DNA of 64,000 bases, taken from the NCBI GenBank assembly GCA_026398615.1, contig JAPLSN010000015.1, positions 1 through 64,000 on the forward strand. The letters are read 5' to 3'. Of the stretch, positions 1-54,365 are shown piece by piece. A program made the translations under genes and the position numbers. Every line of letters starts with the position of its first letter. Position 1 is the stretch's first letter. A model generated the notes under the pieces. It did no database searches, was not told the origin of the DNA, and was given only the letters and a program-made list of their open reading frames with translations. Source of the DNA: Spirochaetota bacterium (GTDB lineage: Bacteria; Spirochaetota; Spirochaetia; Treponematales; UBA12059).

Positions 1-68
1 CCATAGAGAGCCCTTCTGTCAATACAGATTCGAAGGATAAATAAGGTGGATAATGCTCCCTCCTGTTT

Positions 69-866
69 CTATGCAGCTGCACGTTCTTCGATCCCTCTGT
101 CTTGGAACTTACTCGCATAGACTTCGTTTGGAGTCTGGTAGTCTTGCGATTCGTGAAAGCGTTCGCCGTTGTAGAAATCCATGTACCTTTTCAACCCGGC
201 CTTTAGCTCGATCGCAGTCCGGTAGTCGTTGAGGTAAATGTCCTCGTACTTCAAGGTCCGCCAGAATCGCTCGATGTAAATGTTGTCCAAAGCCCGATTC
301 ACGCCATCCATGCTGATCTGTATACCATTCGATTCCAGGACGGCGATGAAGGCATCGGACGTGAACTGGCAGCCCTGATCCGTGTTGAAGATCGCCGGAA
401 TGCCGTAGAGCGCAATTGCCTCCTCGAACGCTGCAATGCAGAACTCGGCGTCAAGGGTGTTCGATACCCGCCATGCGAGTATCTTCCTCGAATAGATGTC
501 GATGATGGCTGCGAGGTAGACATCGCCGCCAGCGAGCTTGATGTACGTGATGTCCGTAGCCCAGACCTGGTTCGGCAGCCATATGGCCTTGCCCCATAGC
601 AGGTACGGATGTTTCTTGTGCTGCTTGGCCGGCATGCTCGTCCGTTTTCCTGGATAAATTGCCCTTAATCCAGCTCGCTTCATGATTCGTCGTATCTGTT
701 TTCGGGTGACACCAAGATCCACGAGCTCGCGTGCTACTTTGCGATAACCGTAAAAAGGTCGCCGCCCGAGAACGTCCAGGATCGCCTTCAAGATGGCGAG
801 ATCACGCTCATCATCGGTCTGCCCTGGCTTGTAGTAGTACGCCGACCGGCTGATGCCCAAGATCAC
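69..866 (-). CDS. IS3-family transposase OrfB (DDE integrase core)
   Basis: This is the catalytic half of an IS3-family transposase with an RNase H-like DDE integrase fold, which cuts and joins the IS ends. The HTH_21-like stretch (FYGYRKVARELVD) precedes the core. The catalytic acids are visible as WATDITYI, FNTDQG and the Glu of YIERFWRTLKYE. The nominal start is a GTG at 866, but the frame is open upstream to the A-run at 942-950 and reads VEPSHPTLSIAKQC, a conserved IS3 segment. The natural product is therefore an OrfAB fusion made by -1 frameshifting, not a free OrfB. The C-terminus ends normally near the left inverted repeat. Confidence 0.93.
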   Translation of the reverse strand: MILGISRSAYYYKPGQTDDERDLAILKAILDVLGRRPFYGYRKVARELVDLGVTRKQIRRIMKRAGLRAIYPGKRTSMPAKQHKKHPYLLWGKAIWLPNQVWATDITYIKLAGGDVYLAAIIDIYSRKILAWRVSNTLDAEFCIAAFEEAIALYGIPAIFNTDQGCQFTSDAFIAVLESNGIQISMDGVNRALDNIYIERFWRTLKYEDIYLNDYRTAIELKAGLKRYMDFYNGERFHESQDYQTPNEVYASKFQDRGIEERAAA

Positions 867-904
867 ACATTGCTTTGCGATGGAGAGCGTTGGGTGGCTC
901 GGTT

Positions 905-1210
905 CTACAACTTCGGCTCGCTCCCGTACAGTTGCCGATGCTTTTTTTTTAGAAAATCGTTCTCGACCTGGAGCTGGCCGATCTGTCTGAAGAGCGCATC
1001 CATTTTGCGTTCGGCCTCTTCAGCTGCTGCGTTCCCCTTCCCTGCTTTTTCAAAGAGCTGCGCAGCCATTTCGATCAGCTGCCGTTTCCACTGCGCGATG
1101 AGATTCGGGTGAACCTCATACTGCGTGGCTATCTCCTGGAGCGTCTTATCGCCCTTCATAGCCTCGATGGCGACCTTCGCCTTGAATTCCTTGTCGTACC
1201 GTTTGCGCAT
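905..1210 (-). CDS. IS3-family transposase OrfA (HTH DNA-binding)
   Basis: A 101-residue OrfA with the HTH_Tnp_1 fold: RYDKEFKAKVAIEAMKGDKT, then EIATQYEVHPNLIAQWKRQL, followed by a leucine-zipper-like coiled coil (IGQLQVENDFLKKK). It binds the IS ends and regulates transposition. It is the first gene of the element and starts about 50 nt inside the right inverted repeat. The run encoding the KKK near its end is the slippage site into orfB, and the orfA frame ends at 905 shortly after it. The frames (orfA first bases congruent to 1 modulo 3, orfB to 2) fit a -1 shift. Confidence 0.92.
   Translation of the reverse strand: MRKRYDKEFKAKVAIEAMKGDKTLQEIATQYEVHPNLIAQWKRQLIEMAAQLFEKAGKGNAAAEEAERKMDALFRQIGQLQVENDFLKKKHRQLYGSEPKL
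942..951 (-). promoter_or_regulatory. Programmed -1 ribosomal frameshift site
   Basis: On the minus strand the orfA frame reads CTA AAA AAA AAG, nine consecutive A followed by G, which contains the A_AAA_AAA_G slippery heptamer used by IS3 elements. Slipping back one base enters the orfB frame, which is open from here to 69. I did not fold the downstream sequence for a stimulatory pseudoknot. Confidence 0.75.
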
Positions 1211-1318
1211 GGTGAAACTCTATGCCTCCTTCTCGTCTTCTTCAAGAAGGGAGTCTCCACCTTATTCAGCTCTCCTGAGCTGTCCGATTTCTTGGGCTCA
1301 TTATAGTCCGTGGCCTTT

Positions 1319-1331
1319 GGGGACAGTCCCC
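1319..1331. repeat. GGGGACAGTCCCC palindrome
   Basis: A perfect 13-nt inverted repeat, GGGGAC-A-GTCCCC. It shares its first eight bases with the GGGGACAGAGCT family found elsewhere in the window. It lies in the 115 bp between the IS3 element and the truncated mazE, in a stretch where I see no gene. It may mark the breakpoint that removed the mazE 5' end. Confidence 0.5.
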
Positions 1332-1380
1332 GCACCAGAAATGGGGCAATAGCCTCGGCGTACGCATCCCCAGTCATATC

Positions 1381-1553
1381 GCGAAAGATCTATTTCTGAA
1401 AAATGGATCGGCAGTGGAAATACTCGAGGAAGGTGACAAAATAATCATTCAACCCGCAAGAAAAAGCGTCTGAAAGATATTCTGGAAATGATCACGGAAG
1501 AAAACCTTCATTCGGAGGCTTTTGATATTCCCGCCGGGAAGGAATTATTGTGA
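1381..1553 (+). pseudogene. MazE/AbrB-type antitoxin remnant
   Basis: Reading from 1381 gives AKDLFLKNGSAVEILEEGDK and IIIQPARKS, then a stop. One base out of frame it continues RLKDILEMITEENLHSEAFD to PAGKELL and a stop at 1551-1553. Together these match the second half of a MazE antitoxin: the SpoVT/AbrB end and the MazF-binding tail. The first 25 or so residues, including the usual KWGNS-like start, are absent. The frame break sits in a run of five A near 1476 where six would restore the frame. The gene overlaps mazF by GTGA, the normal TA arrangement. Either the antitoxin is dead or the A-run is a sequencing error, but the missing 5' end argues for real decay. Confidence 0.75.
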
Positions 1554-1882
1554 GTGTCCATATTCCCGATCGGGGAGATATCGTCTGGCTGGACTACAAC
1601 CCGCGACTTGGCCACGAACAAGCCGCGAAGCGACCAGCATTGGTAATGTCTCCGGAAGAATACAACAAGAGAGTCGGGCTTGCATTGTTTTTCCCGATTA
1701 CATCACAAATAAAAGGTTATCCATTTGAAGTAGGAATCTCGTTGTCCAGGATCGATGGGGTCATATTGGCGGATCAAATCAAGAGCCTTGACTGGAAAGC
1801 CAGGGGAATTCAATACATCGAATCAGCGCCGGAAGAAATCCTGCTTGAGGTCCGAAGCAGGCTGGATACGATACTTGAATAA
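1550..1882 (+). CDS. mazF: MazF/PemK-family endoribonuclease toxin
   Basis: A 110-residue toxin of normal length for MazF/PemK enzymes, which cut mRNA at short motifs. It carries the family hallmark PDRGDIVWLDYNPRLGHEQ, followed by KRPALVMSP and an ALFFPIT-like central strand. The C-terminal strand-helix (ILADQIKSLDWKARG) is also typical. The GTG start overlaps the antitoxin stop by four bases. The gene looks intact although its antitoxin is truncated and frameshifted, so the toxin may be silent, neutralised in trans or slightly defective. The surrounding sequence is more AT-rich than the core genome, as expected for an acquired TA module. Confidence 0.9.
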   Translation: MSVHIPDRGDIVWLDYNPRLGHEQAAKRPALVMSPEEYNKRVGLALFFPITSQIKGYPFEVGISLSRIDGVILADQIKSLDWKARGIQYIESAPEEILLEVRSRLDTILE

Positions 1883-1987
1883 TCAAACCAAGCGGGTTTT
1901 CGGGCAAGGCTTGTCCTCGTTGGATGCCGCGTGGGTTCGCGGCAATGGCGGCTTGGATAGATCATGCTCGAGTATTATAGTGATGAT

Positions 1988-2373
1988 ATGAATAACCGGG
2001 CGCAGGATTGGCTCAAGCAGGCGGAAGAAGAATTTGATGGGCCAGGGAAGCATGTACGTTGAAACGATGGGCGGTAGTCTGTTTTACGGCGCAACAAGTC
2101 GCGGAGAAGAGTCTAAAGGCTATCGCCCTCCACCGTGGAGTCTTGCAGGTAAAAAGCCATTCGACAAAAGAGATTGCTGCAGCGCTGGAAATAAGCGGCC
2201 ATCTCGACGAGAAGGCGCGCATTCTTGATCAATACTATATCACTACGCGATACCCCGACGCATTTCCCTCAGGAGCTCCTTTCGAGTATTTTGTGGAACG
2301 GCAGGCTCTTGAATCCATACAGTTTGCCCAGGCTTTCGTAGATCGGGCTCGAGCGGAGCTGGAAGATGCCTGA
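1988..2373 (+). pseudogene. HEPN-domain protein, frameshifted
   Basis: The reading frame from ATG 1988 gives MNNRAQDWLKQAEEEFD and then runs into a stop. The next frame picks up with REACTLKRWAVVCFTAQQ and continues to 2373. Inserting one base near 2037-2041 (GATGGGCC to GATGnGGCC) restores a continuous HEPN protein of about 128 residues with the usual AQDWLKQAEEEF start and CFTAQQVAEKSLKA helix. HEPN proteins pair with minimal nucleotidyltransferases (MNT) in type II/VII toxin-antitoxin modules, and the MNT gene follows with an 8-bp overlap. A TTG at 2059 could start a shortened product. The lesion may be a sequencing error. Confidence 0.7.
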
Positions 2374-2776
2374 TGACGGCCACATTCTCGTCTGGGAAAA
2401 TACCAATCCCGCGGCCTCACCTGGTGAAGACGCGTCCATATTGGTCTGGAATACGCGCGATCCGCTCGCGGGCAGGACGCGCGAGCAGTTCGAGGCCGAA
2501 GCAAGGCGTCTTCTTGCGGGGCGAGTCGAATCCGCATATGTTTTCGGTTCTTACGGGACAAGGGATTTCGGCCGCGATTCGGATTTGGACGTGATGCTCG
2601 TCACGAGAACCGACAAACGCTTTGTCGACCGAGCCCTCGATTTCGCCGATTTCATGGACCTTGTTCCCGACATGGATCTGATGGTCTACACCCCCGAGGA
2701 GTTCGCTCGACTGACACACGAACCCTCGCCGGGTTTCTGGACGAGTGCGATGGAGAGTTTCAAACGAATCATCTAG
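2366..2776 (+). CDS. MNT-domain nucleotidyltransferase (HEPN partner)
   Basis: A 136-residue minimal nucleotidyltransferase. The signature is complete: FGSYGTRDFGRDSDLDVMLV supplies GSx(9-10)DxD, and DMDLMVYTPEEF supplies the third acidic residue. In HEPN-MNT modules the MNT protein adenylylates and neutralises the HEPN RNase. It overlaps the upstream HEPN gene by eight bases, so the pair is translationally coupled. The N-terminal 45 residues are unusual for such a small family and contain a repeated ILVW(E)NT pattern about 20 residues apart, perhaps a local duplication. Because HEPN is frameshifted, the MNT may be an orphan. Confidence 0.85.
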   Translation: MPDDGHILVWENTNPAASPGEDASILVWNTRDPLAGRTREQFEAEARRLLAGRVESAYVFGSYGTRDFGRDSDLDVMLVTRTDKRFVDRALDFADFMDLVPDMDLMVYTPEEFARLTHEPSPGFWTSAMESFKRII

Positions 2777-4139: not shown

Positions 4140-4324
4140 AAAATAAAACGGATGACCGAATGGAGCGCTTGGCTCGACCATGCATGCGTGGCCGTCCGAT
4201 GATTTTCCTTGCAGCAATGGCGGCTTGTTTCGCGGTTTCATCGCTTGCCGCGAATGAGAAATGCCTGAAGGGGGACAGAGCTGCGAATAGAGACCTTCAC
4301 GCCGCTCGTCATCGAATGATGTAA
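4136..4324 (+). CDS. Short exported ORF truncated at a repeat
   Basis: Sixty-two residues starting at an ATGA overlap with the EIIA gene, so it probably once formed an operon with it. A basic region is followed by a signal-peptide-like stretch, MIFLAAMAACFAVSSLAA, with likely cleavage after SLAA. Five residues later the reading frame enters the 12-mer repeat (4271-4282, encoding GDRA), then a low-information tail ending at 4324. It looks like a secreted protein whose mature part was lost at the repeat. I do not recognise the original protein. Whether it is expressed is uncertain. Confidence 0.45.
   Translation: MKNKTDDRMERLARPCMRGRPMIFLAAMAACFAVSSLAANEKCLKGDRAANRDLHAARHRMM
4271..4282 (+). 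repeat. GGGGACAGAGCT copy
   Basis: Exact copy, in frame as Gly-Asp-Arg-Ala (residues 46-49) of the short exported ORF, at the point where sequence resembling a real secreted protein ends. Confidence 0.9.
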
Positions 4325-6625: not shown

Positions 6626-6698
6626 GGGGACAGAGCTGACAGGTAGTGCAGTGGTGCGACAGAGCTGATGAACGAGGGAGATTTGTGGGGACAGAGCT
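6626..6698 (+). repeat. Repeat cluster upstream of the RAYT gene
   Basis: Exact GGGGACAGAGCT copies at 6626-6637 and 6687-6698, with a degenerate copy (10 of 12 matches) at 6655-6666. All have the same orientation and start spacings of 29 and 32 bp. The cluster lies between the serC terminator and the RAYT start at 6750, the position where REP sequences usually flank their transposase. Confidence 0.9.
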
Positions 6699-6749
6699 AG
6701 TAATGGAAAGCATTCAATCAAAAACTGAAATTTCCGGCGTTTACCCAAC

Positions 6750-7232
6750 ATGCGAAGAAAAAGGATTCTCCAGGAGGGCGCTCGCTATCATGTGGTCGCT
6801 CGAGCTAACCGAAGGGAATTGATCATGGATTCGGATGCCATGAAAGATCTTTTCCTGGATGTCGTGAAACGCGCCAAGCGCAAGTATGATTTCCGGATAG
6901 AGAATTTCTGCATCCTGGGAAACCATTTTCACTTTATCATCCAGCCCGGAGACCGCTGTTGTCTTTCTTCCGTCATGCAATGGATCCTGAGTGTATTTGC
7001 CATGACGTTCAATCGTCTGCATCACTACACGGGGCATGTATGGGGTGAACGCTTCCATTCCGTGATCCTGGGTTGTCTTCGTGATTTCTTGCGCGTATTT
7101 TACTACATCGATCAAAATCCAGTGCGAGCAGGGCTGGTCGACGATCCGAAGGATTGGAGATATGGAGATCTGCATCATCGGCGGAAAGGGCTCCATGATG
7201 TCGTCGAGGAAGTCGATTGGATAACTGGTTGA
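6750..7232 (+). CDS. REP-associated tyrosine transposase (RAYT, Y1_Tnp)
   Basis: A 160-residue HUH single-strand transposase of the IS200/IS605-related RAYT group. The HUH pair is GNHFHFIIQ (H59, H61), and the catalytic tyrosine lies in FYYIDQNPVRAGLV (Y118/Y119). The N-terminal ARYHVVARANRRE and the TGHVWGERFHS segment are also family-typical. RAYTs are usually single-copy, domesticated enzymes that move or process short repeats nearby. Here three members of the GGGGACAGAGCT family lie within 125 bp upstream, none downstream. A second, truncated RAYT next to the same repeat occurs at 41722. The gene is less GC-rich than its neighbours. Confidence 0.92.
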   Translation: MRRKRILQEGARYHVVARANRRELIMDSDAMKDLFLDVVKRAKRKYDFRIENFCILGNHFHFIIQPGDRCCLSSVMQWILSVFAMTFNRLHHYTGHVWGERFHSVILGCLRDFLRVFYYIDQNPVRAGLVDDPKDWRYGDLHHRRKGLHDVVEEVDWITG

Positions 7233-12982: not shown

Positions 12983-14641
12983 ATGGGAAAAAATGCGGTC
13001 GCCGATTTTTTCACGAAGCCGTACCTGGCTTCCCCGCTGATCGTCAGGAGCAAGAGCGCGACCCTATCGGTCGTGGCGATGTCGCTCGGGGGCTTCGCCG
13101 CCACGCTGGCGGCGATCATGTCGGTCACGGGCGCCTTCGCCGTGGCCGCCCTCGTCGCGGGCTTCGCGTGTTTCTGCGCCGCGGTCCTCGGGCTGCTCCG
13201 CGCGGGGCGCTACCGTTTCGCGTCGGGCGCCTTCCTGTATGGCTTGTTCGCCGTCATGTTCCTCGCGATCAAATTCGACCAGTACCGGAACATTTACGAG
13301 TGCTACGTCTTCGGGACCCTCGGAGGGATCCTCCTCATCACGTCCACCCTCGTGTCGGGTAAATCCGCCCAGCCCGTAACCCTTACCGTCCTCATTTTGG
13401 CGGCCATCGCCGCGCTGTACGTCCTGGACACCCTGCCCGGGTCCGGCGGGGCGCCGACCCTGCTGGACATACAATCGCTGGCGACCAGTTTCATCATGGT
13501 GACGGTCGGAGGGGCGTTCGCGCGATCCGTCGTCGCGACGCAGTCGCGGCTGGTGGAGACGGTGGAGCGCGACGCCCTCGTCGAGCGCGACAGGCGCGAA
13601 GCGATCGAGCGGGCGGTCAGCCTCGTCCAGGCCAAGGCGGACGAAATCGGGAAGCGGCTGGTCGCCGCGATCGAGCGCATGACGGCTTCCATCCGGTCGG
13701 CGGAAGTCGCCGTCCGCGGCATAGAAACCGGAGCCGGCGGGCTCGAAACCGCGCTCGACCGCTCCGTTTCCGACAACGAGTCGGCGGTATCCGGCCAGGT
13801 GACCGTGTCGGGCGCGCTGGTCGGATATTCCAGGGAAGTCGATGCCGTGTCCGCAGCGATCGGGCAGATGGCCGCCTCCATCCGCTCCATCGGCGCGAAG
13901 ACCGCGGAAAAACGCGATTCCGTCCGCGCTCTCTCGGGGCTGGCCCGGGACGGCGAGGAGCGGCTCTCCTCCATCCGCAAGGCGGTCCAGGAAGCGCTCG
14001 ACTCGGCCGACCGCATGCTCGAGCTTTCGGCTTTCATCGTGGATGTGGCCGACAGGACCAACCTGCTCGGCATGAACGCGTCGATAGAGGCAGCCCATGC
14101 CGGGGTCCAGGGCCGCGGGTTCGCGGTGGTGGCCGACCAGATCAGGAAACTGGCGGAAGAGGCGGCGAAAAGTTCGCGCGTCATCGCCGACACCCTGAAG
14201 GACACGAGGGAGAGCATCGGGAAGATCGCCGAGGAGGACGCTCGCCTCGAAAAATATTTCAGGCGCATCGCGGACGAAACGAAAGACGTCGCTTCGATGA
14301 TCGAGGAGCTCATTTCCGGCGTGGAGGAGATCTCCGCCGGGGCGGGGGAGATCGTCGGATCCGCGGACCGGGCTTCGTCCCTTTCGGCGCCGACGAAAAA
14401 GGCCGTGGAAACCTCCCGTGAGGCTATCGGGCGATCGTCGGAGAGCATCCGGGCCGTGGAGGAAACCACGGGGGCCGTCCTCGGACGCTGCCGCGAAGCC
14501 TTGGCCCATTTCGGCGACATGACGGGTTCGATAGGCGGGTTGCGCGATCTCGGCATGGAAAACGAGCGGGGCATCGTTGAACTCAGGCGTGCCCTGGACC
14601 TGGCCGGTCCCGACCCGGAAACCGGCGGGTCTCGGACGTGA
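12983..14641 (+). CDS. Methyl-accepting chemotaxis protein, polytopic N-terminus
   Basis: A 552-residue chemoreceptor. Instead of a periplasmic sensor flanked by two helices, the first 190 residues form about six membrane segments (SVVAMSLGGFAATLAAIMSV, VAALVAGFACFCAAVLGLL, ITSTLVSGKSAQPVTLTVLI). It may sense within the membrane. No clear HAMP domain follows. The signalling hairpin tip is conserved (DVADRTNLLGMNASIEAAHA, then GRGFAVVADQIRKLAEEAAK). The output would be CheA/CheW and the periplasmic flagella. The start at 12983 was chosen because translation upstream (GTG 12914) gives a low-complexity extension. The stop overlaps the next gene by GTGA. Confidence 0.88.
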   Translation: MGKNAVADFFTKPYLASPLIVRSKSATLSVVAMSLGGFAATLAAIMSVTGAFAVAALVAGFACFCAAVLGLLRAGRYRFASGAFLYGLFAVMFLAIKFDQYRNIYECYVFGTLGGILLITSTLVSGKSAQPVTLTVLILAAIAALYVLDTLPGSGGAPTLLDIQSLATSFIMVTVGGAFARSVVATQSRLVETVERDALVERDRREAIERAVSLVQAKADEIGKRLVAAIERMTASIRSAEVAVRGIETGAGGLETALDRSVSDNESAVSGQVTVSGALVGYSREVDAVSAAIGQMAASIRSIGAKTAEKRDSVRALSGLARDGEERLSSIRKAVQEALDSADRMLELSAFIVDVADRTNLLGMNASIEAAHAGVQGRGFAVVADQIRKLAEEAAKSSRVIADTLKDTRESIGKIAEEDARLEKYFRRIADETKDVASMIEELISGVEEISAGAGEIVGSADRASSLSAPTKKAVETSREAIGRSSESIRAVEETTGAVLGRCREALAHFGDMTGSIGGLRDLGMENERGIVELRRALDLAGPDPETGGSRT

Positions 14642-23245: not shown

Positions 23246-24432
23246 GGGTTGCCTCCACGGTTCGTTGAACCCGACGGGCCGGACGATCGCTGCGTCCCGC
23301 CCGAATTCTGGCCCTGGTCCTGCCGATCCCTCCCGCCTGGCGGAGGACCGCCCGGACCCATCATCATGAAGGGAAGGCCCGAGTTGCCGGATGATCTGGC
23401 GGCTGCTTTCTGCACGAGGACGGTGTCGCCTTCCGCGAGCCCGGAGACGATCTCCCACGATCCGTCCGCCAGCTTGTTCGCCTCGATTTGCCTCGGCCCG
23501 ATGGAGCCATCGCTTTCCTTGACGATGACCATGGTGCCCCTTGGCGTTTCGGTGACCGCGGCCTTGGGAAGGGTCAGGATCTCACGGGCGGTGGAAGCGA
23601 TGACCTTGGCCGAAAAGCTGTAGGCAGGCAGGAGCTCGGGAGGCGGATTGTCGATGCGGGCTTCGACGTCGAACACCGCGAGACCCTGCGAGGTCACGCG
23701 ACCTTCCGGCGGAATGGAAGAAACCTTCCCTTCGTATTCCTTCCCCGGCAGGGCATCGACTTCGAACAGCGCCTTCTGCCCCGTGCGGACGACCGGCAGG
23801 TCGATCTCGTCGATCTCGAGCATGGCGATCAGGTACGACCGGTCGATGATCCTCACGGCGGCGACGGACGCACCCGTCGCATCGCCGACGGAGATAGCCA
23901 CGTCGCTCACGACCCCGGCATAGGGCGCCCGGAGCGCGGCCTTGGCGAGATCGGCCTTGCGGAGATCCAGTTCGAGGGCGATGAGCCCGGCGTCCTTGAT
24001 GTTGCCCGAGATTTCCGCTTTCTGCAGGCGGTTTTCGACATCCGCGACTTTATAGCGCTGGTCCGTATCGTCGAGCCTGGCGAGCACTTCTCCGGTTTTC
24101 ACGTACGCGCCTTCCCTGGCCGCGACGGATGCCACCGTGCCCGATATCGAGAACGCGAGGTCGGCGGAACGGGCGGGCGAAAGGTTCCCCGATGCCTCGA
24201 TAACCCGCTGGTCCGTGGCTTTTTTCACCACTACCTCGTCGAAGTCGGAAGCCTTGAGGCTGGCGTATCGAGCTCTGTCCCCGGTACCCGATGCCGCGCC
24301 GGCGCCATTTTTCGCCGGCGCGGCGAAATGCAGCTTGAACGGCGTGATCCCAGAGACCAGGATGATCGCCGCCGCGACGAGGATCGCGGCCGATGCAAGT
24401 ACGAGTGTTCTCATTTTATGTGTTGTTTTCAC
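23242..24432 (-). CDS. Periplasmic membrane fusion protein (MacA/HlyD type)
   Basis: A 396-residue adaptor linking the inner-membrane ABC exporter to the outer-membrane channel. An N-terminal membrane anchor (LVLASAAILVAAAIILVSG) is followed by a short linker, lipoyl/biotinyl half-motifs (IEASGNLSPARSADLAFSIS, APYAGVVSDVAISVGDATGA), a short coiled hairpin and beta-barrel domains. The GTG at 24432 was preferred because GGAGG lies upstream and it overlaps the TolC-like stop; ATG 24414 is an alternative. The linker contains an exact repeat 12-mer encoding GDRA at residues 51-54. The C-terminal tail is Gly/Pro/Asn-rich. Confidence 0.9.
   Translation of the reverse strand: MKTTHKMRTLVLASAAILVAAAIILVSGITPFKLHFAAPAKNGAGAASGTGDRARYASLKASDFDEVVVKKATDQRVIEASGNLSPARSADLAFSISGTVASVAAREGAYVKTGEVLARLDDTDQRYKVADVENRLQKAEISGNIKDAGLIALELDLRKADLAKAALRAPYAGVVSDVAISVGDATGASVAAVRIIDRSYLIAMLEIDEIDLPVVRTGQKALFEVDALPGKEYEGKVSSIPPEGRVTSQGLAVFDVEARIDNPPPELLPAYSFSAKVIASTAREILTLPKAAVTETPRGTMVIVKESDGSIGPRQIEANKLADGSWEIVSGLAEGDTVLVQKAAARSSGNSGLPFMMMGPGGPPPGGRDRQDQGQNSGGTQRSSGPSGSTNRGGNP
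24271..24282 (-). repeat. GGGGACAGAGCT copy in the fusion-protein gene
   Basis: Exact copy, in frame as Gly-Asp-Arg-Ala in the linker just outside the membrane anchor. The following bases CGA match the flank of the copy at 25921. Confidence 0.9.
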
Positions 24433-25920: not shown

Positions 25921-25932
25921 AGCTCTGTCCCC
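25921..25932 (-). repeat. GGGGACAGAGCT copy, intergenic
   Basis: Exact copy in the divergent intergenic region between the exporter operon and the bifunctional-nuclease gene, followed by CGAGC. Confidence 0.9.
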
Positions 25933-30955: not shown

Positions 30956-32029
30956 ATGATCAGGAAAATTTTCCGGAAAATTCGAGCTCTGTCCCTCCTG
31001 CTTGCGGTCGGATTGGCCTGCTCGGGCGTACATCTTCGGGCGGACTGGACCACGGGAGCGACGTTCAGCGCAGGCGATATCGAATCCGCGCGAAATACCC
31101 TCAAACCATTCGGGGACATCCTTTCGGGACCTCCCCACGAGCCGTCCCCCGGATGGAAGTCGTATCTTGCCTTCTACGGGCTGGACACCCTGCCGGGCGA
31201 TTGGCGGGCGGGATACGTGACCGTGCCAGGCGGGGCGAAGGTCTTTGCACAGGTCTTTTCGCCCAGGGACGCCGTCGGCACCGTCGTGTTCGTCCATGGC
31301 TACCTCAAGCATTCGGCCTATGCGCGCGACATAGCGGCCTTCTTCGTCCGGAAAGGATACCGGGCCGTTCTCATGGATCTGCCCGGTCACGGGTTTTCGG
31401 ACGGTGAACGCGGGGTGATCACGGATTTTTCCGATTACTCGGATGCGCTCAGGGCGGTGCTCGACGCGGTGAAGGACGGCGGGCCGCTCTACGTGGCTGG
31501 TCACAGCACGGGCGGCGCGACCGCGATCGATCTTGTCGAAAGGGGGCTCGCTGGCGACGTTGCGGCCATCGCCCTGTTCGCGCCACTGGTGCACAACGTG
31601 CTGTGGGGGCTTTCGCGTTTCGCGCTTACGACGACCGGATGGTTCCTGCCGTATGTATTCAGGATCGAATACGTCCAGAACCGGACTGCCGACTGGGACA
31701 GGCTCGAGAACAAGCTCGATCCCCTCGTGCCGCGACGGGTGCCGACATCGTGGGGGCGTTCGCTCGGCGCATGGAACCGGCGGCTTCTCGCCTCGACGCC
31801 CCAACCCTGGAACGGAAGCCTGCTCATCGTGCAGGGCGACAAGGACAGGGTCGTGGATGGCGCGTGGAATGTTCCCTTTCTCCTGAAGCGGTATCCCCGG
31901 GTCCGGGTTCTCATGGTACCCGGTGCGACGCACGATCTCTGGGAAGAACCGGCGCCTTATGGCCCTCCCGGATTCGAGGCGGCGCTGGAATTGTTCTCCA
32001 GGCAGGCGGATGCCGGCGCGCCCTTGTAG
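30956..32029 (+). CDS. Exported alpha/beta hydrolase (lysophospholipase-like)
   Basis: A 357-residue serine hydrolase of the Hydrolase_4/monoglyceride-lipase group. The triad is visible: nucleophile in VAGHSTGGATA, Asp in IVQGDKDRVVDG and His in VPGATHDLWEEP. The oxyanion segment is VVFVHGYLKHS, and DLPGHGFSDGERG is typical of lysophospholipases. A signal peptide (MIRKIFRKIRALSLLLAVGL, then ACSG) could carry a lipobox-like Cys, suggesting a lipoprotein. The hydrophobic core of this signal contains a near-perfect repeat 12-mer. The substrate is unknown; membrane lipids or acyl esters are likely. Confidence 0.85.
   Translation: MIRKIFRKIRALSLLLAVGLACSGVHLRADWTTGATFSAGDIESARNTLKPFGDILSGPPHEPSPGWKSYLAFYGLDTLPGDWRAGYVTVPGGAKVFAQVFSPRDAVGTVVFVHGYLKHSAYARDIAAFFVRKGYRAVLMDLPGHGFSDGERGVITDFSDYSDALRAVLDAVKDGGPLYVAGHSTGGATAIDLVERGLAGDVAAIALFAPLVHNVLWGLSRFALTTTGWFLPYVFRIEYVQNRTADWDRLENKLDPLVPRRVPTSWGRSLGAWNRRLLASTPQPWNGSLLIVQGDKDRVVDGAWNVPFLLKRYPRVRVLMVPGATHDLWEEPAPYGPPGFEAALELFSRQADAGAPL
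30985..30996 (-). repeat. Near copy (11/12) of GGGGACAGAGCT in a signal peptide
   Basis: AGCTCTGTCCCT on the plus strand. The preceding TCG gives a 13-base match, TCGAGCTCTGTCC, to the copies at 24271 and 25921. It encodes part of RALSL in the signal peptide. Confidence 0.65.
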
Positions 32030-32059: not shown

Positions 32060-34654
32060 TCAACCCTCGTACGGAGTGAGCTCCTCCACGTCCTCCTCGA
32101 CCGCGGGACCCTCGACCGCGCCATTCCCGCGGATTCCCCGTTGTCCGGCATCCGCGTGCGGCAGCCTGCGCACGCTTGCCAGGGGGGTGCCGGGGACAGA
32201 GCTCGGACCCATGCCTGGATTCCGGACGAGATCGCGGGGCTTCGATCCCTGTGCCGGGCCGACGATGCCCTTTTCCTCCATGAGTTCCACGAGGCGGGCG
32301 GAGCGATTGTAGCCGATCTTGAGGCGACGCTGGATGAAGCTGGCGCTCGCCTTGCCCTGCTGCAGGACGATCTCGAGGGCTTTTTCGAAAAGCGGGTCGT
32401 CCGCGTCCTCGTCGAAGAGCGATGGCTCTTCCTCTTCCTCGTCCTCGTCGAAGAACATCTCCTCGTCGATGTAGTCCGGTTCGCCCAAAGTCTTCACGTG
32501 CTCGACCACCCGCTCGACCTCCTCCTCCGAGACGTATGCGCCCTGGATGCGGACGGGGAAGGGATCCCACGCGCTCGAAAAGAGCATGTCGCCGCGGCCG
32601 ATGAGCTTTTCCGCGCCGACGGAATCGATGATGATCCGGCTGTCGAACTTGCCCGCCACCATGAAGGCGATACGGCTGGGGATGTTGGCCTTGATGAGCC
32701 CGGTGATCACGTCGATGCTCGGCCGCTGGGTGGCGAGTACCAGGTGGATGCCGATGGCGCGCGACATGGCCGCGAGCCGGGCGAGGGTGGATTCGAGTTC
32801 CTTGCCCGTGGTAGCCATGAGGTCGGCGAATTCGTCGATGACAACGACGATGTAGGGGAGTTTTTCCTGCGCGAGCTTCTTGTCGGTGATCTTCCGGTTG
32901 AAGCTGCGGATATCCCGCACGCCCAGGCGGTCCAGCATGCTGTAGCGGCGCTCCATCTCGCAGAGGCAGTACTGCAGGGCCTGGAAGGCCTTTTTCGGCT
33001 CCGTGATGACCGGTGTGAGGAGATGGGGGATGTCGTTGTAGAACTTCAATTCCACGATCTTGGGATCGATGAGGAGAAGCCGTACCTCGTTCGGGGAACG
33101 GCGGTAGAGCAGCGAAAGGATGAGGGAGTTCACGCACACGCTTTTCCCGGAACCCGTCGCGCCCGCGATGAGAAGATGCGGGGTCTGCACGAGGTCGACG
33201 AACTGCACTTCACCCGAGACATCCTTGCCGAGGGCGACGGGGATTTCCATCTTCGCCGCGCGGAAGCCCTCGGATTCCACGATTTCCCTGAAGGAAACGA
33301 TGGACCTGTGTTCGTTCGGGACTTCAATGCCGACGGCGTGCTTGCCGGGGATCGGTGCGACGATGCGCACCGTGCTGGCGGCAAGCCTGAGCGCGATGTT
33401 GTCGGCGAGGTTCACGATCTTCGAGAGCTTGACGCCGGGAGCAGGCAGCAGCTCGAACATGGTGACGACGGGTCCCTTCCGGATTCCGGTAACTTCGGCT
33501 TCGATATTGAATTCGGCCAGGGTTTCCTGGAGCACCACGGCGCTCCGTCGCGTCTTGTCGTCGATGATCCAGTACTGCCCGTCCGGGTAGGTATTGAGGA
33601 TGTCGGTCGGTACGAAATACTCGGTCCGGAGCGGCTTCCGGATCGGTGCATGATGTTCCGGCGGTACGGACTCCTCAAATACGCGTATGGCCTTGCCCAT
33701 CGGTTTTACCGTCGGATCCGTTCCGGCAGCGATTTCGTTCGGACCAGGATCGAACGGCCTTGTCGGATCAGCCCTTTCGACGGGGCTCCCGCGGATCAAT
33801 GAACGTTCGCGACCAGCGGCAGCGCCAGGCGCCGCTTGCGCTTTCATGCGGATGGTGGCGGGATTGTCCGCCCAAAATGCCCCCGATGCTGCCGGGTCGG
33901 TTGGATGATCGACCGAACGTGCTTCCGTCGCCATTTCCGCAGCATGCGAATTCTCCGGCTGTCTGCGGAAAAATACGGGAACCGGTTTCTCTTCAGTTTG
34001 GTCAGCTCTGTCCCCGCTACCCGGTATATCGGATGGTGAAAGAGACTTCAGCTCCGGCAATGGCGGCAAGTCCGGCACCCTGAATTCAAAGCCAGTGGAA
34101 GGAGCCTTCCCGGCTTCCGAAGCGGGGGATCCGAGCAGTCCTGAAACCGGCCTGTGCGGCGGCGAACCGGCAATTTCAGCTCTGTCCCCTTCGGTGGCAA
34201 ACGAGCCCTCTCCGAGCACCACGTCGCGGAAACCGACCACGAGCATGACCGAAGACAGGAAGGCGACACCCCCGAGCACGCCGACGACCGGCATGCCGAT
34301 GCCCTCGAGGGCGGGCATCGTCTTGAACCAGGTATCGGGCGAGCTGAGAAAGGCATGGATCATGACGAGGATCGCGAATGGGAGGACGGACGCGGTGACA
34401 TAATAAAGAAGATCCCGGCGGAATCCCGGCAGGAACAGGACGATGGATTCGGCGAAGAGGTATAGGGGCAAGGCCAGCGCGAAGAGGCCGAGCGTATCCG
34501 AAAGGAAGGAGCCCGCGAGAGAGACCGAACCGAGTCCTTCGATGCTGAAAAAACCGACAATGGCGATGGAAAGGGAAAAAAGCCCCAAGGCCGTGAGGAT
34601 ACAGCCGGCGATGACGCTCAGGGATCTGGTATCGTTCATGCGTGATTCTGACAC
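32060..34654 (-). CDS. ftsK: DNA translocase FtsK/SpoIIIE
   Basis: An 864-residue septal DNA pump. Four N-terminal membrane helices (LSVIAGCILTALGLFSLSIA, YYVTASVLPFAILVMIHAF) are followed by a low-complexity linker (about 150-330) and the motor: Walker A AGATGSGKSVCVNS, Walker B IVVVIDEFADLM, LATQRPSIDVITG. The gamma domain, FIQRRLKIGYNRSARLVELM, reads KOPS-like sites. Unusually, the gene holds three exact repeat 12-mers: GDRA at residues 156-159 and 214-217 in the linker, and SSVP at 818-821 in a C-terminal tail beyond the gamma domain, where FtsK normally ends. The start may be GTG 34654 (GGGAG upstream) or ATG 34639. Confidence 0.93.
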   Translation of the reverse strand: MSESRMNDTRSLSVIAGCILTALGLFSLSIAIVGFFSIEGLGSVSLAGSFLSDTLGLFALALPLYLFAESIVLFLPGFRRDLLYYVTASVLPFAILVMIHAFLSSPDTWFKTMPALEGIGMPVVGVLGGVAFLSSVMLVVGFRDVVLGEGSFATEGDRAEIAGSPPHRPVSGLLGSPASEAGKAPSTGFEFRVPDLPPLPELKSLSPSDIPGSGDRADQTEEKPVPVFFRRQPENSHAAEMATEARSVDHPTDPAASGAFWADNPATIRMKAQAAPGAAAGRERSLIRGSPVERADPTRPFDPGPNEIAAGTDPTVKPMGKAIRVFEESVPPEHHAPIRKPLRTEYFVPTDILNTYPDGQYWIIDDKTRRSAVVLQETLAEFNIEAEVTGIRKGPVVTMFELLPAPGVKLSKIVNLADNIALRLAASTVRIVAPIPGKHAVGIEVPNEHRSIVSFREIVESEGFRAAKMEIPVALGKDVSGEVQFVDLVQTPHLLIAGATGSGKSVCVNSLILSLLYRRSPNEVRLLLIDPKIVELKFYNDIPHLLTPVITEPKKAFQALQYCLCEMERRYSMLDRLGVRDIRSFNRKITDKKLAQEKLPYIVVVIDEFADLMATTGKELESTLARLAAMSRAIGIHLVLATQRPSIDVITGLIKANIPSRIAFMVAGKFDSRIIIDSVGAEKLIGRGDMLFSSAWDPFPVRIQGAYVSEEEVERVVEHVKTLGEPDYIDEEMFFDEDEEEEEPSLFDEDADDPLFEKALEIVLQQGKASASFIQRRLKIGYNRSARLVELMEEKGIVGPAQGSKPRDLVRNPGMGPSSVPGTPLASVRRLPHADAGQRGIRGNGAVEGPAVEEDVEELTPYEG
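32192..32203 (+). repeat. GGGGACAGAGCT copy in ftsK C-terminal tail
   Basis: Exact copy, antisense to ftsK, encoding Ser-Ser-Val-Pro (residues 818-821). Confidence 0.9.
34004..34015 (-). repeat. GGGGACAGAGCT copy in ftsK linker
   Basis: Exact copy, sense to ftsK, encoding Gly-Asp-Arg-Ala (residues 214-217). Confidence 0.9.
34178..34189 (-). repeat. GGGGACAGAGCT copy in ftsK linker
   Basis: Exact copy, sense to ftsK, encoding Gly-Asp-Arg-Ala (residues 156-159). It lies 174 bp from the copy at 34004 in the same orientation and reading frame. Confidence 0.9.
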
Positions 34655-37679: not shown

Positions 37680-38860
37680 CCCAGCTCTCCGCGCGCGACG
37701 GCGTCCGCGAGGGCTGCCGCGGCGTTGAGGTTGACGAGAGCCAGTTCCAGTATGCGCCGCTCGTCCACGTCGAAGCGAGGATTATGGTTCGGCTTGTCGA
37801 TCCCGAGCGCGGGCGCCTGGGTGTTCATGTACCAGAAGCACCCTGGCACCCGCTTGAGGAAGTAGGCGAAATCTTCGCCGCCCATGCTCGGCTTCGTCAT
37901 GTCGACGACACGGTCCGGCCCGAGTGTGGACGATGCGGCTGCCCTCGCAATCGCCGTGGCGCCGGGGTGGTTGACGAGCGGCGGGTAACCGCCGAGCCAA
38001 TCGAACAAAAAACGCGTTCCCGTAGCGAGGGCGATCCCTTCGCCGATTTCCCGGAGGCGCCGTTCGGCCAGCTCGCGGTTCCGGTCCGACAGGGTGCGCA
38101 CCGTGCCCTCGATGAAGGCCTGTTCGGGGATGATATTGTGGGCGCTGCCCGATTCCACCCTGCAGATGCTGATGACAACGGGTTCCGTCTGATTGAATTC
38201 GCGCGCGCGGAAGCTCTGGCATGCGAGAATGTATTCCGCCAGGGCCGGGATGGGATCCCGCGCGCGGTGGGGTTCCGCGCCATGACCGCCCTGGCCCGTG
38301 AACACGGCGCGGAACCTGTCCGCGGCGGCCATGAGAAAGCCCGGCATGAAACCGGCCTGCCCGGGTTCCAGCTCCTCCGACAAATCGCCCACATGCCCGC
38401 CGACGATGGCCCGCACGTCGTCGAGGCAGCCTCCTTCGATCATGCCGACGGCCCCGAAAAATCCCTCCTCGCCGGGCTGGAATGCCAGGCGGACGCGGAA
38501 GCCCGGCTCTGTCCCCGCGAGTATCTCCGCGCAGCCGAGGAGGGCAGCCGTGTGGACATCGTGACCGCACGCGTGCATCCGACCGTGGCGTTCGCTCGCG
38601 AAGGGTAATTCCGTCTCCTCGACGATCGGGAGGCCGTCCATATCGGCGCGTATGGCCACGAGCGGGCCGCTCGAGCCGAAGTCGGCGACGAGTCCCATGC
38701 CGCAACGGCGCGGAATGGCGCCAGCAGCCGCCAGTTTGGCTTCCACATATGCGATGGTCTCCGGGAGCTCGAGCCCGATTTCCGGTATCCTGTGCAGCGC
38801 CCGCCTGTGTTCGACGACGCGGGTTCCCATTTTTTCGAAGGCGTCCAGGGCGAAGGTCAT
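37676..38860 (-). CDS. M20-family amidohydrolase (amino-acylase/IAA-hydrolase type)
   Basis: A 394-residue zinc-dependent M20D peptidase. Metal ligands appear in GRMHACGHDVHTAALLG and the general base in FQPGEEGFFGA. The dimerisation domain follows (AVFTGQGGHGAEPHRARDPI), and MGGEDFAYFLKRVPG carries the late ligand region. These enzymes cut N-acyl amino acids or similar amides. It sits between the DUF2007 gene and the amylase-like gene with four-base overlaps on both sides, forming one minus-strand operon. A near match (11/12) to the repeat 12-mer occurs at 38505-38516 but could be coincidental. Confidence 0.9.
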   Translation of the reverse strand: MTFALDAFEKMGTRVVEHRRALHRIPEIGLELPETIAYVEAKLAAAGAIPRRCGMGLVADFGSSGPLVAIRADMDGLPIVEETELPFASERHGRMHACGHDVHTAALLGCAEILAGTEPGFRVRLAFQPGEEGFFGAVGMIEGGCLDDVRAIVGGHVGDLSEELEPGQAGFMPGFLMAAADRFRAVFTGQGGHGAEPHRARDPIPALAEYILACQSFRAREFNQTEPVVISICRVESGSAHNIIPEQAFIEGTVRTLSDRNRELAERRLREIGEGIALATGTRFLFDWLGGYPPLVNHPGATAIARAAASSTLGPDRVVDMTKPSMGGEDFAYFLKRVPGCFWYMNTQAPALGIDKPNHNPRFDVDERRILELALVNLNAAAALADAVARGELG

Positions 38861-41884: not shown

Positions 41885-41926
41885 AGCTCTGCCCCCAGGC
41901 AAGGCAGGATTTTCAGCTCTGTCCCC
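41885..41926 (-). repeat. Two GGGGACAGAGCT copies beside the RAYT remnant
   Basis: A near copy (11/12) at 41885-41896 and an exact copy at 41915-41926, same orientation, start spacing 30 bp, similar to the spacings near the intact RAYT. Confidence 0.88.
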
Positions 41927-53459: not shown

Positions 53460-54365
53460 TCAGATTGCCAGCACCGCCGGTGCGCCTTCGTCCTTCGCCA
53501 ATCCGGCGAGAGCCTCCATCTCCGCGTCTGAAAATTCCCCGTGTACCACCATGCCCGGGCGCACGCCGGTCGGCCTGAATCGCGCGATCCGGTACAGCGT
53601 CCGCCTGCCGACGGGAGAAGCCCCGATCGTCGCGGGGTCGAAGGGGAAGGCGGCGAGGATCCTCGAAACCTCCCGCACCGTGCGGGCCGCGTCCATGTAC
53701 CCGGCCACGGCCACGGTGCGGACTTCCCAGAGTTTGCCCGATCCCGCGAGAAAGCGCAGGTTGTCGAGGACGGCCGCGTTGTCCCGCCCGGTAAGGCGAA
53801 AATGCTCTCCGGGGTCGACGCTCTTCACATCGAGGAGGATGCCGTCGCACGCCGCGAGGAGGCGATTTTCATGCTCGAGGGGAACGGAGCCGTTCGTGTC
53901 CAGCGCCGTATCGAGGCCGAGTTCCCGCGCCCGAAGGAACAGCTCCGTGACCCATTCCGTCCGGAGCGACGCTTCCCCGCCGGAAGCCGTGATCCCGCGG
54001 ATGAAACGGCGGTACGGGGCGATCCGGACGATGACCGATTCCGGCAGCATGGGGGTTGTCCGGGGCGACGCCGCGATCGGGCAGATCTGTTCGCAAGCTC
54101 CGCAGTCCCTGCAATCGGGTTCGGACCAGCGGATGCGCCTGTTCGGGGACAGAGCTTTTCTTGGGGACAGAGCTCCCGACGGGCAGCCCGGAACGCAGGT
54201 CCCGCAGGCATCGCAGATCCCGATCGTCTCCGGATTGTGGCAATAGAGGCAGTTGAAGTTGCATCCCTGCAGGAAAACGACCGAGCGGTTGCCCGGGCCG
54301 TCCACGGAGCTGAAGGGTATGATCTTCCTGACGGGCGCCAGCTGTTCGTCATCGACCGGGTTCAT
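53460..54365 (-). CDS. yjjW: YjjW-type glycyl radical enzyme activase
   Basis: A 301-residue radical SAM activase. The SAM cluster is GCNFNCLYCHNPE (CxxxCxxC). An inserted ferredoxin domain carries CDACGTCVPGCPSGAL and CRDCGACEQICP, binding two more clusters. GITASGGEAS is the SAM-binding GGE motif. It generates the glycyl radical on the partner encoded upstream, YjjI. Between the two ferredoxin Cys groups lie two exact repeat 12-mers, encoding ALSPRKALSPNR, a longer linker than expected there. All cysteines are kept. Confidence 0.88.
   Translation of the reverse strand: MNPVDDEQLAPVRKIIPFSSVDGPGNRSVVFLQGCNFNCLYCHNPETIGICDACGTCVPGCPSGALSPRKALSPNRRIRWSEPDCRDCGACEQICPIAASPRTTPMLPESVIVRIAPYRRFIRGITASGGEASLRTEWVTELFLRARELGLDTALDTNGSVPLEHENRLLAACDGILLDVKSVDPGEHFRLTGRDNAAVLDNLRFLAGSGKLWEVRTVAVAGYMDAARTVREVSRILAAFPFDPATIGASPVGRRTLYRIARFRPTGVRPGMVVHGEFSDAEMEALAGLAKDEGAPAVLAI
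54145..54174 (+). repeat. Two GGGGACAGAGCT copies inside yjjW
   Basis: Exact copies at 54145-54156 and 54163-54174, direct, 18 bp apart (a multiple of three). They are antisense to yjjW and each reads Ala-Leu-Ser-Pro. Confidence 0.92.

Follow-up and report, generated by a model that had tools for sequence, protein, structure and literature searches.

RAYTs (REP-associated tyrosine transposases) are widespread relatives of transposases that are kept on chromosomes. To our knowledge, no agreed mechanism exists for how RAYTs propagate their repeats. In REP/REPIN-RAYT systems, a chromosomal single-copy Y1 RAYT is accompanied by its own cognate family of short repeats (PMC2817692, PMC6006769). TIRtrons consist of a RAYT-like Y1 gene (TIRYT) and non-REP repeats with the motif GGGGWSAS, carry, by definition, inverted repeats on either flank of the gene, and comprise some TIRs that form single, dimer or grouped genomic families (Di Nocera et al. 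2013, PMC3733652); the passages on TIRtrons in that article make no mention of cis-clustering, gapless replacement in genes or within-genome matching of word and RAYT. The HIP1 octamer of cyanobacteria, a palindrome that occurs genome-wide and is tied to methyltransferases, is gained by substitution and maintained, also inside coding sequence (PMC4390886). Rickettsia palindromic elements and intragenic REPs, as discussed in PMC3733652, are long-palindrome insertions that are tolerated in protein-coding genes.

Here we describe a locus from a Spirochaetota genome, located in a 64,000-nt stretch of DNA (the window), at which a RAYT gene lies behind direct copies of a 12-mer. Like REP/REPIN-RAYTs, the gene is chromosomal and has its own short repeat family. 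In contrast to REPs, the repeat has neither GTAG nor a hairpin, neighbouring copies are almost always direct, and tens of copies, many of them intragenic, are gathered around the gene. The pairing of a RAYT-like Y1 gene with a non-REP repeat is shared with TIRtrons, and GGGGACAG matches GGGGWSAS exactly, but the copies at the gene are on the same strand and upstream only. As for HIP1, gain by substitution inside genes is seen; however, HIP1 is a genome-wide palindrome, whereas the 12-mer is an asymmetric word that occurs in clusters and goes with a Y1 endonuclease. Unlike in the Rickettsia elements, length-preserving replacement of 12 bp is common.

A RAYT-type gene behind direct 12-mer repeats

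The window contains an ORF of 160 amino acids (6750-7232, forward strand) that we analysed by profile, alignment and structure searches. The protein matched the Pfam model PF01797 (Y1_Tnp) with 49.7 bits (cut-off 23) and the NCBIfam model NF047646 (REP-associated tyrosine transposase) with 89 bits (cut-off 80), while its score of 25.8 bits against the IS200 model was below the 55-bit cut-off. It contains the motifs NHFH and YIDQNP, which are of the HUH and Y-x-x-x-NP types that mark RAYTs. H59 and H61 (codons at 6924-6932) and Y119 (7104-7106) are invariant among 11 relatives, and the catalytic motifs are retained in 79 of 80 named RAYTs. These results bear out the original prediction of an intact Y1 transposase with HUH and tyrosine motifs. 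The top Foldseek match of the predicted structure (pLDDT 81) was 4ER8, the TnpA-REP of E. coli (E = 4.6e-9); the IS200/IS605 structures 2A6O, 2VJV and 2XM3, which share the HUH/Y1 fold, were matched as well. The model terminates after a short helix, and a domain search of the 160 residues returned Y1_Tnp alone, without the C-terminal helix-turn-helix that is present in TnpAY1 subclass 2.1, which includes most published TIRYTs.

The source genome (3.38 Mb over 43 contigs) has six Y1 genes. Since these are divergent from each other and not near-identical copies, and since the score was below the IS200 cut-off, we rejected an IS200/IS605 insertion sequence; subterminal hairpins as in IS200/IS605 were not found. 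Relatives of the RAYT with names are all from Spirochaetota except one labelled only 'bacterium'. We regard the window gene as a Y1 HUH endonuclease of the RAYT type that has settled in the chromosome.

A word search identified three direct units ahead of the gene on the forward strand, two exact copies of GGGGACAGAGCT at 6626-6637 and 6687-6698 and between them a decayed unit, TGCGACAGAGCT, with two mismatches (6655-6666). The last unit ends 51 bp before the ATG at 6750, so that both the predicted cluster and its spacing to the gene were recovered. Further forward copies occur at 4271-4282 and 32192-32203, as two exact direct copies 18 bp apart at 54145-54174, and in a direct-repeat array at 2832-2920 that consists of three exact 12-mers (2840, 2882, 2909) and partial units. 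On the reverse strand, copies are located at 24271-24282, 25921-25932, 34004-34015 and 34178-34189. Another reverse copy (30985-30996) has one mismatch, a first base A that is seen in 32% of copies elsewhere, and one that ends in C (38505-38516) lies within a 394-aa ORF conserved in relatives. Two direct reverse copies at 41885-41926 comprise an exact (41915-41926) and a 1-mismatch unit (41885-41896). In total, the window had 22 matches at up to two mismatches compared to 6.3 expected, a number reached in 0 of 100 shuffles, and the source genome had 31 exact copies compared to 0 of a reversed control word. By eye, the stretch 69-2776, which adjoins the array at 2832-2920, contains an apparent IS3-type transposase ORF pair, a MazF/PemK-like ORF (1550-1882) and small HEPN-like ORFs.

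The repeat unit is a linear 12-mer

Among 309 copies, information was essentially limited to [G/A]GGGACAGAGCT, with a trace at the next base. No hairpin was common at the word (DNA fold z from +1.5 to -2.5; +1.1 in the window), a GTAG/GTGG 5' tag was not found around the 309 copies, and the units had no flanking inverted pair. Neighbours less than 100 bp apart were in direct orientation in 29 of 31 cases. Lack of a hairpin, lack of a GTAG tag and direct neighbours rule out a REP or REPIN. The expectation that the unit associated with this RAYT is the GGGGACAGAGCT family and no hairpin REP was thus upheld by the absence of hairpins and by the clustering and matching described below; the accompanying notion of REP-like mobilisation fared less well, as copies in conserved genes, where these align with relatives, are mostly length-preserving replacements.

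At 73 RAYT loci, a same-strand copy was present within 350 bp upstream of the gene in 68, with the GGGAC start at a median of -73 from the ATG. Upstream copies within this distance numbered 124 on the same strand compared to 12 on the opposite strand, which rules out a TIRtron architecture. No enrichment occurred within 350 bp downstream (12 same, 12 opposite), and no 12-mer was found downstream of the window RAYT. Tandem arrays of the word have periods of 13-42 bp. A full-text literature search for the 12-mer and near words, in which many subscription papers and bioRxiv were outside coverage, returned nothing relevant.

The word is clustered around RAYT genes

We located the word in related genomes, most of them MAGs, by pattern searches and in selected stretches. 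In the source genome, 10 of 31 exact copies were within 10 kb of three cognate RAYTs (0.55 expected, p = 1e-10) and 21 within 50 kb (2.75 expected). In genome G014, 54 of 98 copies were within 10 kb of five RAYTs (2.65 expected, p ~1e-57) and 89 within 50 kb (p ~1e-66). The single-contig genome G034 had 14 of 42 copies within 10 kb of one cognate RAYT (0.21 expected). The closed genome of the isolate Breznakiella homolactica RmG30 has 12 copies of its own version, GGGACAGAGTA, and one Y1 gene; 10 of the 12 were within 9 kb of this gene (p = 5e-23). Clustering in an isolate genome and in a single-contig genome argues against an assembly artefact. The link between RAYT and 12-mer is real, and it is general in Spirochaetota.

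Genomes with at least five copies of the repeat were mostly not devoid of a RAYT, which largely agrees with the original prediction; the exceptions were G004, G012 and G017, all fragmented MAGs. In G017, 49 copies were present and no Y1 gene was found. The source genome also has small orphan clusters of the 12-mer on contigs C41, C36 and C14 (L239-L242), near which tblastn detected no RAYT relics. Both G017 and the orphan clusters count against the RAYT as the writer of the word.

Word variants match individual RAYTs

The six RAYTs of the source genome are accompanied by three tail types of the word with almost no crossover. The same-strand upstream word is GGGACAGAGCT at three RAYTs including that of the window, GGGACAGTGCT at two and GGGACAGTCCC at one. 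Correspondingly, the surroundings contained 5, 6 and 5 AGAGC copies at three RAYTs, 3 and 3 AGTGC copies at two, and 3 AGTCC copies at one, with a single AGTCC copy in the window region as the crossover exception. AGAGC-type and AGACC-type RAYTs also coexist in G007 (16, 3 and 10 AGAGC copies; 16 and 13 AGACC copies), where own and other words occurred at 29 to 2 against 2 to 29 (Fisher p = 9e-13). In an unbiased 9-mer scan, GGGACAGAG, GGGACGGAG, GGGACAGAC or GGGACAGTC ranked first among the local words at the majority of the 80 named loci. Mapped onto the RAYT tree, the word variant required 9 changes, whereas shuffling gave a mean of 28.9 and no value this low in 200 trials; as host relatedness adds to this signal, the contrasts between RAYTs of one genome test the match more strongly.

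Replacement, insertion and maintenance of word copies

In unselected loci, 287 kb of RAYT-bearing regions contained 166 exact 11-mers compared to 3 in 283 kb of orthologous RAYT-less loci. Sites with one mismatch numbered 84 and 10, respectively, while those with two (91 and 87) and also those with three mismatches were equal. Thus, intermediates are not in excess and sites are mostly all-or-none. Among ten sites that could be aligned to RAYT-less orthologues, seven were gapless and none was a clean 12-bp insertion; the orthologues carried GGCGCCGTGCT, GGCGCAGCCGC or TGCCGACGGCT at positions of GGGACAGAGCT in RAYT genomes. At position 13388 of locus L052, G014 has GGGGACAGAGCTGT and G008, G009 and G004 have GGGGATGGAGTCGT. 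Four of the 12 bases differ while the close flanks are identical to those of G008, and several outgroups assign the gain to G014. The polarity of gain is firm at this site only and indirect at the others.

The orthologous RAYT loci of G014 and G008 are 76.5% identical. Of the sites not shared between them, 13 of 20 were gapless. Sites of G014 were intact in G008 in 30 of 42 cases, compared to a neutral expectation of 7% (p = 6e-26), with flanks near background. The bases bordering the conditioned 10-mer were raised (0.93, 0.90), indicating that the conserved unit is the 12-mer.

In G030, parC and parE lie beside a RAYT (L061, 11328-16233) and contain 15 copies of the word. Seven are gapless in aligned codons, e.g. 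MALGIEN to MALGTEH, and eight are within low-complexity in-frame inserts of 65 aa in parC and 71 and 46 aa in parE, which are partly made of the 12-mer and absent from five relatives. Insertional spread also happens, at least in linkers. A plain 12-bp insertion was rejected as the main mode, since it was unseen in alignable genes. We calculated that independent point mutation yields about 0.13 new sites per 38 kb, and fewer than 0.05 from at least three changes. Taken together, the sequence comparisons suggest that the word is written over existing sequence, including essential genes, besides being inserted.

A model of in-place writing and its alternatives

As the simplest interpretation, we propose that the RAYT recognises a linear 12-mer, [G/A]GGGACAGAGCT, at least one gene-oriented copy of which precedes its start codon by about 50-100 bp. 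The substrate of the enzyme would be single-stranded DNA, as exposed at forks or R-loops. There the word would be transferred to chromosomal sites in the vicinity, either by exchange or by templated repair, such that about 12 nt of the sequence already present are replaced all-or-none with the length unchanged. Mutated copies would be re-written. The density of the word declines with distance from the gene over about 10-50 kb, as would be expected if a source array at the gene supplied it or if the enzyme acted mainly in cis. Recognition of the word, the role as writer and the strand-exchange step are what we infer from the comparisons above. The explanation as a whole, a RAYT with a linear, hairpin-less recognition 12-mer that writes it locally in place, appears probable to us, if only slightly. 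That a Y1 HUH endonuclease overwrites the nearby chromosome with a fixed 12-nt word, essential genes included, and keeps restoring it, and would thus represent a DNA-writing system and no transposon, we put forward more tentatively, as a possibility somewhat short of probable. Nearly all window copies are in DNA where no relative aligns, so that they cannot be classified as insertion or replacement, which counts against in-place writing.

The main rival is a selected binding site, gained by ordinary point mutation and then kept, which the RAYT binds but does not write; it could serve RAYT autoregulation, local chromosome organisation or recombination. The strong maintenance between G014 and G008 and the operator-like same-strand copy just upstream of 68 of 73 RAYTs are in line with such a site, and the spread of HIP1 proceeds through nucleotide substitution, with no transposase known for it (PMC4390886). 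Between genomes as distant as those compared, each replacement could also represent several selected point mutations. However, two-mismatch intermediates are not in excess, the calculated yield of point substitution is low, and copies occupy arbitrary positions in all frames of unrelated genes, with non-synonymous changes in essential genes. We therefore consider selection rather unlikely. Conventional transposition, in which the RAYT inserts the word, or the word and a spacer, and the insertion is subsequently masked by deletions or by an uncertain alignment, would account for the in-frame inserts in parC and parE of G030 and for the tandem arrays of 13-42 bp period; it is improbable in view of the gapless state of 7 of 10 alignable sites, with no clean 12-bp insertion, and of 13 of 20 sites unshared between G014 and G008.

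A passenger role of the RAYT, with word and gene gathering in plastic regions and the word made by another local process such as methylation, repair or uptake, seems highly improbable to us: each RAYT within one genome is ringed by its own word variant, this variant tracks the RAYT tree, and copies extend beyond plastic islands into the housekeeping genes parC and parE, although orphan clusters without a RAYT exist and RAYTs can adjoin toxin-antitoxin and IS genes (window 1-2776). Chance, composition or codon usage might be invoked where copies encode the peptides GTEL, GDRA or GQS, or where positions such as GTEVS in parC are natural seeds. Such an artefact is already refuted by the reversed-word controls (0-1 copies) and by the 166 compared to 3 copies in matched DNA, and copies are found on both strands, in all frames and also between genes.

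In-place writing, if true, would be a natural short-tract DNA-editing activity with several words (AGAGC, AGACC, AGTGC, AGTCC and GGAG types), and proteins encoded near RAYTs would be altered by an endonuclease, not by selection on the protein. Because a single enzyme family comes here with numerous word variants, of which one genome can have several, each around its own gene, recognition and spread are open to direct testing.

Additional RAYT-associated repeats

At L087 (G050:C42), a locus orthologous to that of G030, the RAYT is surrounded by GGGACAGAGG[A/T], not GGGACAGAGC, possibly representing a recent word change. At L063 (G006:C82), the 20 kb surrounding another RAYT contain 56 copies of an unrelated local word, GGTGCCAGG (0.7 expected). 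Two other RAYTs in G034 (L058, L059) are surrounded by GTAGCAGGCG repeats, probably classical GTAG REPs, and this genome carries the 12-mer system besides them. On contig C14 of the source genome (L011, 1995-2600), the AGTCC-type RAYT is followed by an apparent RHH antitoxin gene and an apparent RelE-like toxin gene, after which two palindromic GGGGACTGTCCCC sites are located; the gene pair may be cargo between word copies.
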